Assembly: GCA_046759145.1 (NCBI GenBank) | Contig: JBHIBR010000131.1 | Location: forward strand, 1 to 5,733 | Direction: 5' to 3' | DNA length: 5,733 nucleotides | Source: JBHIBR01 sp046759145 [NCBI: Nitrospinota bacterium] | Lineage (GTDB): Bacteria > UBA8248 | In this document: in pieces, positions 1,737-5,354 of the stretch | How the letters are laid out: each line of letters starts with the position of its first letter | Numbering within the stretch: position 1 is the first letter of the stretch | Position numbers and translations under genes: made by a program | Notes under the pieces: model-generated | Told to the model about the DNA's origin: nothing | What the model saw: only the letters and a program-made list of their open reading frames with translations | Database searches by the model: none

Positions 1737-2819
1737 TTAGTTCCGCACCTCGATGAGCTTGCGGGTGCCCGCCGCTGCGAACAGGATGTTGCCCGCCCAG
1801 GCGGCGAGCACCGGGGGCAGCAGCCCCGCATGGCCCAGGGAGAGCCCCAGGTGGTAGAGCAGGAGGTAGAGGAAGCCGATGAGGAGGGTGAGCGCCACGC
1901 CCAGGGCGATCCCGCCGCTGCGACTGGTCCTGAGGCTGAAGGGGACGCCCACCAGCGCCAGCACGAAGCTCACCAGGGGCAGGGAGAGCTTCGCCTGGAG
2001 GTCCACCTCGTAGCGGGTGGGGTCAAGGCCGTTCACCCGCAGGGTGTGGATGTACTCCCGCAGCTCCCCGAAGCTCATCTCGGCCGGGTCCTTCCCCGTC
2101 CGCTTGAAGTCGGAGGGCTTGTCCTCGAGGGGGAAGGTGCGCCGGCTGAAGGGTTCGCTCCGCACACCTCCCCCGGCGGAGAACCGGTGGTAGAAACCCT
2201 CTTCGAACCACCATCGTCCCCCCTCCCAGCGGGCCCCGGCCGCATCCACCCTCTCCCGCAGGCCGCCCGCCCCGTCGGGGCGGAGGAGGCTCACCCCTTT
2301 CATCCGGTCGTTGAACGGGTCGAAGAACTCGATGTGCCAGATGGTGCCGTCCTCGGAGCGGTACCAGATCCGGTTCACCCGCCGGAAGCCCCGGGGCGCA
2401 TGGCCCTTGATCCTGACGTTCAGGATGTGGCTCACGCGGCGGTTGGTGTAGGGGATGACGTACTCGTTGGCGAAGAAGGTGAGGACGCTCAGGCCCAGGG
2501 AGGCGAGGAGGAGCGGGCTCACCACCCGGTGGAGGCTCACCCCGCATGCCCGCATGGCCGTCACCTCATTCTGGCGCGAGAGGGTGAGCAGGCAGAGCAC
2601 CACGGCCATGAGCACCGCCAGCGGGACCGACCACACCGCCAGCTGGGGGATCTTGAAGAGGAAGTAGTTCGCCGCATCCGCCAGGGAGGCCCCCTTCTCG
2701 ATGAAATCGTCCACCCGCTCGATGAACTCTACGGCCAGGAAGATGTTGAGCGCCCCCGCCATCCCCAGCGCCAGGAATTTTAAAAACTGCCCGAGGACGT
2801 GGCGGACCAGCAGATTCAC
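1737..2819 (-). CDS. lptG: LPS export ABC transporter permease LptG
   Basis: LptG pairs with LptF in the inner membrane. Powered by the LptB ATPase, they extract LPS and pass it to the periplasmic LptC/LptA bridge. The protein is 360 aa, the same as E. coli LptG. Membrane segments are visible at about 11-34, 60-80, 98-118, 276-296, 303-325 and 331-351, giving the family's 3+3 plan around a periplasmic beta-rich domain (about 120-265). SRQNEVTAMRACGVS (81-95) is the conserved cytoplasmic coupling-helix region that contacts LptB. The start is GTG 2819: it overlaps the lptF stop as GTGA, is preceded by the purine-rich AGGGAGGGGA (2830-2821), and puts the first hydrophobic helix at the usual place. 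The frame is open upstream to 3110, but that stretch is a shadow of lptF coding. The stop is TAA at 1739-1737. Assignment as LptG rather than LptF rests on gene order and length, as the two are homologous. Confidence 0.93.
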   Translation of the reverse strand: MNLLVRHVLGQFLKFLALGMAGALNIFLAVEFIERVDDFIEKGASLADAANYFLFKIPQLAVWSVPLAVLMAVVLCLLTLSRQNEVTAMRACGVSLHRVVSPLLLASLGLSVLTFFANEYVIPYTNRRVSHILNVRIKGHAPRGFRRVNRIWYRSEDGTIWHIEFFDPFNDRMKGVSLLRPDGAGGLRERVDAAGARWEGGRWWFEEGFYHRFSAGGGVRSEPFSRRTFPLEDKPSDFKRTGKDPAEMSFGELREYIHTLRVNGLDPTRYEVDLQAKLSLPLVSFVLALVGVPFSLRTSRSGGIALGVALTLLIGFLYLLLYHLGLSLGHAGLLPPVLAAWAGNILFAAAGTRKLIEVRN

Positions 2820-3979
2820 GTCCCCTCCCTCCCCACCAGGAGGCGGCCCAGGGGGAGGGCGCCCAGGCCCAGGGTGGCGCCCCGGTGCACGCGCCGGAGC
2901 GCCCACGCGGCCAGCGGGCCGAAGGTGAGGTTGGGAAGCCACACCCCCAGGGCTACCGGGAGGGCTCCCTGCTCCCCCAGGCCCTCGCCCAGGGTGCGGA
3001 CCACGTAGTAGAGGAAGAGCGCCGCAAGGCTCAGCACCATCCCTCCCCCTCTGCCCGAGCGGCGGTTCTGCACCCCCAGGGCTGCCCCCAGGAAGCCCAG
3101 GATGAGGCACGCGAAGGGCGTGGCGAACTTCCGGTGGTACTCCATCAGGTAGCGTCGATATTTCGGGTGGTCCGGGGTCAGCTCCTTCAGCTTCTCCTTC
3201 AGGGCATCGAGGGAGAGCTGCTTGAGGGAGCGGCCCAGCGGCCTCTGCCCCTCCAGGGCGCCGTGGGGTTCGAGGAGGAGGTCGTAGGTCGAGAAGCGGA
3301 CGAGGTGGTATTCGCGCTTCGCGGGGAGGAAGCGGTGGAGCGCCCCGTCAGCCAGCCGCAGCACGACGCGGAAGGCATGGGGCTGGGCGAGGAGTTCCCC
3401 CCGCTTCGCCACAATGAGCTGGTCGGCCTCCTTGGGCCGGGTGTCCGAGATGAGCACCCCGCGGAACTCTCGCCCCCCGGGCCGGACCTCCCGCACATAG
3501 AGAACCACCCCGTCGAAGGCGTCGTTGAACACCCTCTCCTTCACCTCGAAGGCCGAGGGCCGCGCCTGGACCACCTGGTATTTGAGCTCCTCGAAAGCGC
3601 GCAGGCTCCAGGGAAGCGCCTGGAAGATGAGGAGCACCGAGGCCAGATAGGCCAGCGTGGAGAGGACGGCTACCCCCACCAGGAGCCGGAGGAAGCTCAC
3701 CCCGTGGGCCGCCATGGCCACCAGTTCGCCATCGGTCGAGAGGCGGCTGAAGGTCATCACCGCCGCCACCAGCAGCGCCACCGGGATGGTGACGATGAAG
3801 AACGAGGGGGCGATGATGGCCAGGAGCTTCCCCACCAGCAGGAGCGGGACCCCCTTGTTCACGATGAGCTCGGTGAGCTGGAGGAGGCGGTTGAGGAAGA
3901 GCAGGAAGGTGAAAAGGCAAAGGGAGAGCAGAAAATAACAGGAGAGCTCGGCAAAAATGAACCGGTGGATCCGGACCAT
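2816..3979 (-). CDS. lptF: LPS export ABC transporter permease LptF
   Basis: LptF is the partner of LptG in the LptB2FG transporter that lifts LPS out of the inner membrane. From ATG 3979 the product is 387 aa (E. coli LptF is 366). It has membrane segments at about 13-30, 50-75, 98-120, 287-303, 314-330 and 338-361. SRLSTDGELVAMAAHGVS (78-95) is the coupling region facing LptB, and a periplasmic beta-rich domain lies at about 125-265. EYHRKFATPFACLILGF (280-296), which opens the fourth membrane segment, is typical of the family. A tail of about 25 residues after the last helix (RVHRGATLGLGAL onward) is somewhat long. ATG 3979 is chosen because MVRIHRFIFAELSCYF matches LptF N termini. The frame stays open to 4156, but only through a tandem repeat that reads as low-complexity Arg/Gly/Pro. 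The nearest clear purine run, GAGGGAG (4000-3994), is 14 bases upstream, so the ribosome site is not ideal. It is the first gene of the lptF-lptG operon. Confidence 0.94.
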   Translation of the reverse strand: MVRIHRFIFAELSCYFLLSLCLFTFLLFLNRLLQLTELIVNKGVPLLLVGKLLAIIAPSFFIVTIPVALLVAAVMTFSRLSTDGELVAMAAHGVSFLRLLVGVAVLSTLAYLASVLLIFQALPWSLRAFEELKYQVVQARPSAFEVKERVFNDAFDGVVLYVREVRPGGREFRGVLISDTRPKEADQLIVAKRGELLAQPHAFRVVLRLADGALHRFLPAKREYHLVRFSTYDLLLEPHGALEGQRPLGRSLKQLSLDALKEKLKELTPDHPKYRRYLMEYHRKFATPFACLILGFLGAALGVQNRRSGRGGGMVLSLAALFLYYVVRTLGEGLGEQGALPVALGVWLPNLTFGPLAAWALRRVHRGATLGLGALPLGRLLVGREGT

Positions 3980-4001
3980 GGTGCCCGCCCCGACTCCCTC
4001 G

Positions 4002-4022
4002 CCGGGGGCCACGCGGCCCCGG
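4002..4022. other. hairpin in repeat copy 1
   Basis: The inverted repeat CCGGGGGCC (4002-4010) / GGCCCCGG (4015-4022) has loop ACGC and one bulged G. It is copied exactly at 4101-4121. In RNA read from the minus strand the same stem forms just ahead of the lptF ribosome binding region (start codon at 3979), so it could influence translation initiation. Confidence 0.6.
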
Positions 4023-4096
4023 GCGGGAAGCCAACTATCTTGAGCCCCCCTTCCCCGCCGGGGCTCCAACGGAACGGGGGATTTCGCTCCGGCCCG

Positions 4097-4121
4097 GTGG
4101 CCGGGGGCCACGCGGCCCCGG
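4097..4121. other. two overlapping, mutually exclusive hairpins in repeat copy 2
   Basis: GTGGCC-GGG-GGCCAC (4097-4111) is a perfect 6-bp stem. It shares bases 4101-4111 with the larger CCGGGGGCC/GGCCCCGG stem (4101-4121), so only one can form at a time. A further perfect stem, GGCTC-TTTT-GAGCC, follows at 4132-4145. Such competing stems are seen in attenuators, but in G+C-rich DNA they also arise by chance. Confidence 0.5.
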
Positions 4122-4192
4122 GCGGGAAGCCGGCTCTTTTGAGCCCCCCTCGGCAACCGGGCTCAGGGGAAGTGGGCGCCTTCGCTCCGCCC

Positions 4193-4210
4193 GGGTGCCG
4201 GGGGGCACCC
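4193..4210. other. hairpin in degenerate repeat copy 3
   Basis: GGGTGCC (4193-4199) and GGCACCC (4204-4210) form a perfect 7-bp stem with loop GGGG. The position corresponds to the GTGGCC/GGCCAC stem of copy 2, but the sequence and register differ. The stem therefore persists even where this copy has diverged. It lies just downstream of the predicted lptF transcription start (about 4219, minus strand). Confidence 0.6.
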
Positions 4211-4225
4211 CGGTGGCCGGGAGCC

Positions 4226-4254
4226 AAGATAGGAGGCTTTCCGCCCCCTGTAAA
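4226..4254 (-). promoter_or_regulatory. predicted sigma70-type promoter for lptF-lptG
   Basis: Read on the minus strand, the -35 box TTTACA (4254-4249) is followed by exactly 17 bases and then the -10 box TATCTT (4231-4226). Each box differs from consensus (TTGACA, TATAAT) by one or two bases, and the spacing is optimal. Transcription would begin near 4219 and give a leader of about 240 bases containing the whole tandem repeat before the lptF start codon at 3979. Confidence 0.6.
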
Positions 4255-4266
4255 GGGTTCTCTTCG

Positions 4267-4295
4267 TTGACTGAGGCCCTTCATTTTGCTAGCTT
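4267..4295 (+). promoter_or_regulatory. predicted sigma70-type promoter for lpxL-waaF
   Basis: The -35 box TTGACT (4267-4272) and the -10 box TAGCTT (4290-4295) are separated by exactly 17 bases, inside a locally A+T-richer patch (CATTTTGCTAGCTTTTC) that stands out from the surroundings. The -35 matches consensus at five of six positions. Transcription would start near 4302, giving a leader of about 60 bases before ATG 4362. Its -35 box is 12 bases from that of the divergent lptF promoter. Confidence 0.65.
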
Positions 4296-4297
4296 TT

Positions 4298-4312
4298 CTC
4301 CGTTTGACGGAG
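4298..4312 (+). promoter_or_regulatory. inverted repeat at the predicted lpxL transcription start
   Basis: CTCCGT (4298-4303), loop TTG, ACGGAG (4307-4312) is a perfect 6-bp inverted repeat spanning the expected +1 position. A second, GCCCA-TCGGG-TGGGC (4326-4340), follows before the coding region. They could be an operator next to the promoter or stems at the 5' end of the lpxL mRNA. The sequence does not tell which, and no known operator consensus was recognised. Confidence 0.4.
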
Positions 4313-4361
4313 ACGGTAGGGGAAAGCCCATCGGGTGGGCCGGGGAGGTGCCCTCGACCGG

Positions 4362-5354
4362 ATGAATGCCTCGCCCCTCTCACGGCGCCCCGGAAAGCGC
4401 CGCCGCAGCAAGGATCGCAGCGCCCTCCGCAAGCGCCTCGAGGCCCAGCTCCTCCTGGCCGGCGCCTGGTTGGTGGGAGCCCTCCCGCCCGGTTGGGGGA
4501 ACGGGCTGGCGCGAGCCGCCGGGGGTTGGGCTTGGAAGAGGTGCACCAGCCGGCGCGAGGTGACCCTCTCCAACCTCCGCAGAGCGCTGGGCTCGGAGCT
4601 GGGCGAGGAAGCCATCGAGCGCATCGGCGAGCAGTCGTTCGAGAACCTCGCCCGCACCGTGGTCGAGAACTGCCGCCTCTGGGTCCGGGGGCCCGATCGG
4701 GTGGGCGAGGTCGTCCGCGTCGAGGGCCTCCACCACGTGGAGCGCGCCCGGCGCGAGGGGAAAGGGATCATCTTCTTCACCGCCCACCTGGGCAATTGGG
4801 AGCTGGTGGCCCTTTACTCCGCCCATCGGGGCTATCCTCTCCACCTGGTGGCCCGCCCCCTGGACTATCCCTACCTGGACGCGCGTCTCTCCGCCCTCCG
4901 GAGCCGGTGGGGGAACCGGGTGGTGAGCAAGCGCAACCCCCTCTGGGATTGCGTGCGCCTGCTCCGTCAAAATGCTGCCCTTGCCATCCTCCTGGACCAG
5001 AACGTGCTCCCGCGCCAGGGGGTGTTTGTGGACTTCTTCGGACGCAGGGCTTGCACCTCCCCCATGGCCGCGATGCTGGCCCTGCGGACGGGAGCGGCGT
5101 GCCTGCCCGTTTTCGTCACGCGCGAGCCCGATGGGCGCCACCTCATCCGAGTGGGGGAGCCCATCCCTCCCGTGCGCACGGGCGATGTCGCCCGAGATGT
5201 AGTCGAGACCACCGCCCGCTTCACCCGGGCCATCGAGGCCGCCATCCGGGAGCGGCCGGGGCAGTGGCTCTGGATGCACCGCCGGTGGAAGGCCCGCCCC
5301 GACGAGGAGGTTCGCGTGGGGGGCTCGGTCCGCCGAACGGAGGCGGGGCGATGA
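4362..5354 (+). CDS. lpxL: lipid A biosynthesis lauroyl-type acyltransferase (LpxL/HtrB family)
   Basis: LpxL-type enzymes add a secondary acyl chain from acyl-ACP to Kdo-lipid A (or its precursor) at the cytoplasmic face of the inner membrane. From ATG 4362 the product is 330 aa, a normal family length. The catalytic H-X4-E motif is HLGNWE (His142-Glu147) within GKGIIFFTAHLGNWE. Further family marks are SKRNP (189-193), LLDQNVLPRQGVFVDFFGR (210-228), TSPMAAMLALRTGA (232-245) and PGQWLWMHRRWK (299-310). A very basic N terminus (SRRPGKRRRSKDRSALRKR, 7-25) precedes a hydrophobic stretch (about 29-42) that would attach it to the membrane. A GTG at 4335 is an in-frame alternative start. ATG 4362 is preferred, with GGGGAGG (4342-4348) about 13 bases upstream, a long spacing. 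It overlaps the next gene by ATGA. Whether it adds lauroyl, myristoyl or another chain, and at which position (LpxL or LpxM role), cannot be read here. Confidence 0.9.
   Translation: MNASPLSRRPGKRRRSKDRSALRKRLEAQLLLAGAWLVGALPPGWGNGLARAAGGWAWKRCTSRREVTLSNLRRALGSELGEEAIERIGEQSFENLARTVVENCRLWVRGPDRVGEVVRVEGLHHVERARREGKGIIFFTAHLGNWELVALYSAHRGYPLHLVARPLDYPYLDARLSALRSRWGNRVVSKRNPLWDCVRLLRQNAALAILLDQNVLPRQGVFVDFFGRRACTSPMAAMLALRTGAACLPVFVTREPDGRHLIRVGEPIPPVRTGDVARDVVETTARFTRAIEAAIRERPGQWLWMHRRWKARPDEEVRVGGSVRRTEAGR
5339..5343 (+). promoter_or_regulatory. ribosome binding site of waaF inside lpxL
   Basis: GGAGG at 5339-5343 sits 7 bases before ATG 5351 and lies in the last codons of lpxL. It is the clearest Shine-Dalgarno sequence in the window. 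Together with the ATGA overlap it fixes the waaF start and points to coupled translation. Confidence 0.8.

Follow-up and report, generated by a model that had tools for sequence, protein, structure and literature searches.

A diverged GC-rich repeat with an inverted junction between lptF and its predicted promoter

Gene content and predicted promoters

The window, by which we mean the whole stretch of DNA analysed (5.7 kb, GC 70%), holds LPS genes. On the minus strand lie lptG (1737-2819; Pfam LptF_LptG, 8.2e-90) and the LPS export permease gene lptF (2816-3979; Pfam LptF_LptG, 3e-85), the latter starting with an ATG at 3979. To the left of lptG is lpxK, the ends of these two genes being convergent, and the partial frame at the left end of the window is presumably a waaA-like KDO transferase gene, judged by its position, as it gave no Pfam match. 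Within lpxK, a 15-base tandem repeat, ACCGACGTTCGGTGG, is present in 2.3 copies with 100% match (1156-1190) and in frame, so that it is translated as a PTFGG repeat. Divergent from lptF is an lpxL/htrB-like lipid A acyltransferase gene on the plus strand (4335-5354; Pfam Lip_A_acyltrans, 4.3e-56), with a GTG start and an in-frame ATG at 4362 as an alternative. It is followed at the right end by the start of a family-9 glycosyltransferase gene, the match to which (22 bits) is at the cut-off. The repeat array described here is located in the divergent lptF/lpxL intergenic region (3980-4361, taken up to the ATG at 4362).

A promoter scan of positions 3800-4500 identified a single site, where 0.0 +/- 0.1 were expected. 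This predicted sigma70-type lptF promoter (4226-4254, minus strand) reads TTTACA-17-TATCTT, and the consensus used may not be that of the host. GC content is 79% in 4001-4225 and only 52% in 4226-4320, and a drop in GC is a frequent feature of promoter regions. For the divergent lpxL, a possible plus-strand promoter (4267-4295; TTGACT-17-TAGCTT, 8/12) was recognized by eye and is under the scan threshold. Also upstream of lpxL, GGGGAAAGCCC (4319-4341) resembles by eye the start of the junction motif described below, and it appears to begin a perfect short hairpin, GCCCA-TCGGG-TGGGC, at 4326-4340.

The sequence-only reading of this DNA had proposed that the array fills most of the space between the predicted lptF promoter and start codon. 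The geometry agrees with this: the array borders the -10 box on one side, and 21 bases separate its other end from the lptF ATG. A transcript from about position 4219 would plausibly carry an lptF leader of about 240 bases made mostly of array, a length derived from the one promoter match.

Repeat units and the inverted junction

The same reading had reported an exact 32-base segment recurring at a distance of 99 bases, and this was found as described: 4001-4032 is identical to 4100-4131, each copy holding the hairpin GGGGCC-ACGC-GGCCCC. At this spacing the similarity extends well beyond the exact block, with 62 of the 77 positions identical between 3986-4062 and 4085-4161. Local self-alignment of 3980-4080 against 4081-4240 gave a score of 82, whereas the highest score among 500 dinucleotide shuffles was 33. 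The repeat is real and beyond chance. Read in the direction of lptF on the minus strand, it comprises two complete copies of the unit and an incomplete third. The promoter-proximal full copy, unit A (4130-4225, 96 nt), aligns over its whole length to unit B (4031-4129, 99 nt), the second full copy, which was delimited by repeat analysis and by its alignment to A. Unit C (3986-4030) adjoins the lptF start and is partial; its first ~30 nt alone are well kept, and it shares the exact block with B.

Alignment of unit A with unit B scored 44, which was reached in 0 of 2000 shuffles (maximum 36), and a manual count found 62 of its 99 columns identical. The period is 99 at one step; at the next it varies between about 94 and 98 with the landmark chosen (97 for one repeat family, with the rest counted manually). 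A further degenerate copy, as had been claimed, is therefore present, but the constant period of ~98 claimed with it is not. With a minimum score of 30, Tandem Repeats Finder did not include the array in its output, and excessive divergence of the copies is the presumed reason. Divergence is graded, from 32 exact bases shared by B and C to 62/99 columns between A and B, which fits duplications of different age. The 15 mismatches among the 77 positions aligned at the 99-base spacing are clustered (32-match run, p 0.0017 in 20,000 permutations), and such clustering may reflect selection or gene conversion.

Pattern searches also recovered a motif at the unit junctions, GGGCGGRAAGCC-N2-CTATCTTG-RGCYCCC, which occurs on the plus strand at 4021-4049 and, with 2 mismatches, at 4120-4148. 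An inverted copy with 3 mismatches lies on the minus strand at 4218-4246, where it overlaps the predicted lptF -10 box; this inverted junction is new beyond the sequence-only reading. Using a shorter-seed search, the arms 4021-4042 and 4225-4246 were found to be 86% complementary over 22 nt. The junction pattern has 3 sites in the window and 0 in 200 shuffles, a count that is descriptive because the pattern was derived from the same copies. When 4200-4361 was compared with the reverse complement of 3980-4199, the observed score was reached in 13 of 3000 shuffles, and in 21 of 3000 when the test was restricted to 4226-4361. The inverted copy makes the array a mosaic in which direct pieces are combined with inverted ones. 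Thus, what had been described as a tandem repeat does contain direct copies, but it is not a pure tandem array.

Hairpins, folding and the lptF start

A scan for perfect hairpins detected a 7-bp hairpin in unit B (GAGCCCC-N11-GGGGCTC, 4042-4066) and another 7-bp hairpin at the corresponding position of unit A (TGAGCCC-N12-GGGCTCA, 4140-4165). The stem GAGCCC/GGGCTC is common to both, and the loop has diverged. Positions 3980-4250 contain 11 short perfect hairpins, compared with at most 5 in each of the other window tiles (n=55). Shuffled sequences of the same composition contain 4.9 +/- 3.3, however, and 57 of 1000 reach 11. Stems of at least 7 bp number 3, against a shuffle mean of 1.7, and 80 of 300 shuffles reach 3. 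The array is hairpin-rich relative to the rest of the window, as had been noted, but not clearly beyond what its base composition provides.

On the lptF-sense strand, predicted folding was moderately stronger than in dinucleotide shuffles: z was -3.0 over 3980-4225 and -2.4 over 3977-4219 (1/100 shuffles each), compared with -1.6 for both spans on the opposite strand (8/100 and 7/100). Folding the lptF-sense leader RNA over 3960-4240, close to the span proposed with the sequence-only reading, likewise indicated moderate over-stability (z -2.5, 0/200 shuffles). Both the geometry and the sense-strand fold support the predicted lptF leader that had been suggested, and the length of 240 bases is plausible. 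The whole intergenic region (3980-4361) gave z -4.1 on the plus strand and -4.4 on the minus strand (0/100 each; -4.0 in a separate plus-strand run), and 4226-4361 alone (z -0.5 and -1.9) is not clearly over-stable. The arms 4000-4024 and 4100-4124 represent complementarity between copies of one palindrome, and the over-stability may result from such complementarity and the long inverted junction alone. A transcript from 4219 would lack the inverted arm, which is located upstream of the transcription start predicted for lptF.

Taken singly on the minus strand, units A, B and C have z-scores of -2.1, -0.5 and -1.3, with 6, 58 and 19 of 200 shuffles folding equally well. Units A and B adopt different predicted minimum free energy structures (-57 and -53 kcal/mol alone), and their RNAalifold consensus reaches -25 kcal/mol, under half of either unit's folding energy. 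In this consensus, which compares two units, 4 of 21 pairs are altered on both sides yet remain paired; the opposite-strand consensus is comparable (3 of 20 pairs).

With the array in place, opening the lptF start region is predicted to cost 25.0 kcal/mol; shuffled arrays give 22.8 +/- 2.9 kcal/mol, and 19 of 100 reach the observed value. Removing unit A, or A and B together, lowers the cost to 22.8 kcal/mol, and removing the whole array lowers it to 18.4 kcal/mol. Sequestration of the ribosome binding site driven by the array was rejected, as burial of the start is no greater than with shuffled arrays. Together, the opening energies and folds leave generic damping of translation possible and a dedicated switch unsupported. 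No Rfam family matched the array at the gathering score, and four sub-threshold matches (E 1.8-4.6) fall far below it. The proposal that the array is a regulatory leader tuning LPS export accordingly found no specific support, given the differing unit folds, a start buried to the same degree as with shuffled arrays and the lack of an Rfam family.

Copies elsewhere, known elements and the origin of the array

Outside the array, a possible degenerate fragment of unit A lies at 1674-1704 (local score 31), in the convergent lpxK/lptG gap (1601-1736), which is the only other sizeable intergenic gap of the window. This match ranks at the top of 154 window tiles (three overlapping tiles; next score 29). 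Its score was reached by 1/500 and 8/3000 shuffles in separate runs; of 3035 random tile pairs, 1.0% reached it, the highest scoring 36. When R1, a sequence-only model of units A and B, was run over the window, 49 matches were obtained at E <=10, of which the top ones were units A and B, the partial copy at 3986-4029 (16.2 bits, 4.7e-5) and the opposite strand within the array (0.0033 and 0.007). Its match in the lpxK/lptG gap (1661-1706, E 0.0063) is near the intragenic matches at 0.012 and 0.013. The fragment at 1674-1704 hints at a dispersed repeat but does not demonstrate one.

Exact-pattern searches with a 27-base piece of the exact block gave no match in 84,980 species genomes, nor did a 24-base piece of the block or three further patterns in IMG/VR; such scans are blind to diverged copies. 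Candidate origins from plasmids and phages were rejected, since blastn returned short scraps only, with a lowest E of 0.1 among the best 20 of 31 plasmid records and of about 1 among phage records (12/12).

For the LptF protein, a pattern search of the 84,980 species genomes matched 70 stretches, of which 4 proved to be relatives, with 23-30% identity. All 19 genomes examined from the phylum of one compared genome (recorded as Verrucomicrobia) gave an LptF-like match, the best-scoring being 26% identical and short partial matches reaching 36%. Plasmid-borne LptFs are 20-28% identical (22 records). In IMG/VR, no relatives of LptF, LptG or LpxL were found among 18, 6 and 9 stretches, respectively, and comparison of six window proteins with six comparison loci gave matches for LptF and LptG only. 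Because these protein scans rely on exact matches to peptide words, moderately related genomes would escape them. The LptF of the window is distant from every relative found in these scans.

REP and BIME elements recur many times in a genome. REP repeats are often clustered and located mostly between convergent or unidirectional genes, with stems of 5-13 bp (GTAG) or 8-9 bp (CGTC) and an unpaired GTAG or CGTC tag at one end, and untagged REP-like families exist too, according to PMC3733652. The array resembles REP and BIME elements in its short GC-rich stem-loops, which are clustered, in direct and inverted orientation, intergenic and possibly transcribed. Its perfect stems of 6-7 bp in both units fall within the GTAG range given there (PMC3733652), although the number of hairpins is not clearly beyond composition. 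It differs from them in that neither GTAG nor CGTC was found in a search of both strands of 3980-4250, that its period is about 99, and that the flanking genes lptF and lpxL are divergent. MITEs are characterized by terminal inverted repeats and a target-site duplication. The imperfect inverted 22-nt arms of the array (4021-4042 and 4225-4246, 86%) recall these elements, but the direct repeat continues past the left arm, and the array does not look like a clean MITE; no target-site duplication was seen by eye outside 4021 and 4246, the ends of the element being uncertain. Tandem riboswitches are tandem structured 5' leaders, and the array likewise places two similar units in a predicted leader. 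In contrast to them, its units differ in their best fold and match no Rfam family at the gathering score.

A dedicated lptF leader was not found in the passages of open-licence papers surveyed. Inducible lptFG strains have been described, with no leader mentioned in the text surveyed (PMC5874903), and one table lists lptF and lptG as neighbours of candidate segments that are apparently not at an lptF leader (PMC4448311). In E. coli, double-stranded RNA between pepA and lptF, marked 5', is tabulated (PMC7373196); to judge from that entry, transcription would overlap at the 5' end of lptF there, and the entry is silent on repeats.

The most likely explanation is a local mosaic duplication that is at most passive with respect to lptF. 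Its fuller form, in which GC-rich quasi-palindromic non-coding DNA was duplicated in tandem in place and now probably serves as a passive structured lptF leader, we hold at about even chances. Duplication of such a quasi-palindrome, by slippage or recombination at hairpins, would have produced units A and B and the incomplete unit C; one inverted junction lies at the outer edge. The array would then be transcribed from the one matched promoter as most of a 240-base lptF 5' leader, which would be structured and passive, would lack a dedicated switch and would, if it had any effect, modestly lower lptF translation. Several observations count against the passive-duplication reading. The clustered mismatches (p 0.0017) may reflect selection or gene conversion. 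In addition, the leader and intergenic region are over-stable, the GAGCCC/GGGCTC stem has been kept, and 4/21 pairs changed on both sides. The 1674-1704 fragment may indicate dispersal instead of local duplication. Dispersal is the main rival: a REP/BIME-like cluster of intergenic palindromes of the host genome would have come by chance to lie between lptF and its promoter. This is possible, if clearly less probable; it would account for short GC-rich palindromes that occur both directly and inverted, and for a best outside match in the lpxK/lptG convergent gap (8/3000 shuffles; E 0.0063), but that match is near background (intragenic E 0.012 and 0.013), the GTAG and CGTC tags are absent from an array that sits between divergent genes, and there were zero exact copies of the core in 84,980 species genomes or of the four patterns in IMG/VR.

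The remaining explanations assign the array a function. Selected cis-regulatory RNA, with tandem structured lptF-leader units tuning LPS export, appears unlikely: the position between promoter and start codon, the sense-strand z of -2.4 to -3.0, the 4/21 A-B pairs changed on both sides and kept, and the clustered conservation would fit it, but A and B differ in their best folds, the opposite-strand consensus is comparable (3/20), start burial is not beyond composition, and the Rfam matches comprise none at the gathering score and four far below. Decidedly unlikely is a reading in which the array, as a regulatory leader in tandem or an operator array specific to this lineage, would adjust the expression of lptF/lptG to the supply of LPS, one copy of the junction functioning at the promoter and the other two in the transcript. 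Very unlikely, too, is an operator array in which GGGCGGRAAGCC-N2-CTATCTTG would be a putative protein-binding site, with one copy over the -10 box of lptF and two in the leader. Three motif copies, one of them inverted on the promoter (13/3000 shuffles), are what such an array would show, but GGGCGGRAAGCC alone, with 2 mismatches allowed, occurs 8 times in the window, no enrichment over the 6.3 occurrences expected, and copies 1 and 2 overlap the longer exact repeat, so that conservation of the motif at these two places is not independent. That the repeat encodes an N-terminal extension of LptF is scarcely credible, even though a period of 99 equals 33 codons and the frame is open from a TTG at 4156 (2816-4156), since the Pfam domain starts at residue 6 of the ATG-started protein. 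This candidate was rejected, as GC at the three codon positions of the lptF frame is 0.81/0.73/0.78 in the array vs 0.72/0.41/0.91 in lptF, and the other frames of the array are flat too; the lack of a clear codon-position signal contradicts coding. The array is very probably non-coding, judging from its composition.

If the array were a selected leader, it would represent an unusual post-transcriptional control of LPS export. It is also a reminder that base composition alone makes GC-rich repeats appear structured. On present evidence, the array represents an intergenic duplication, small and probably local, in a GC-rich bacterium, to be regarded as ordinary until shown otherwise.
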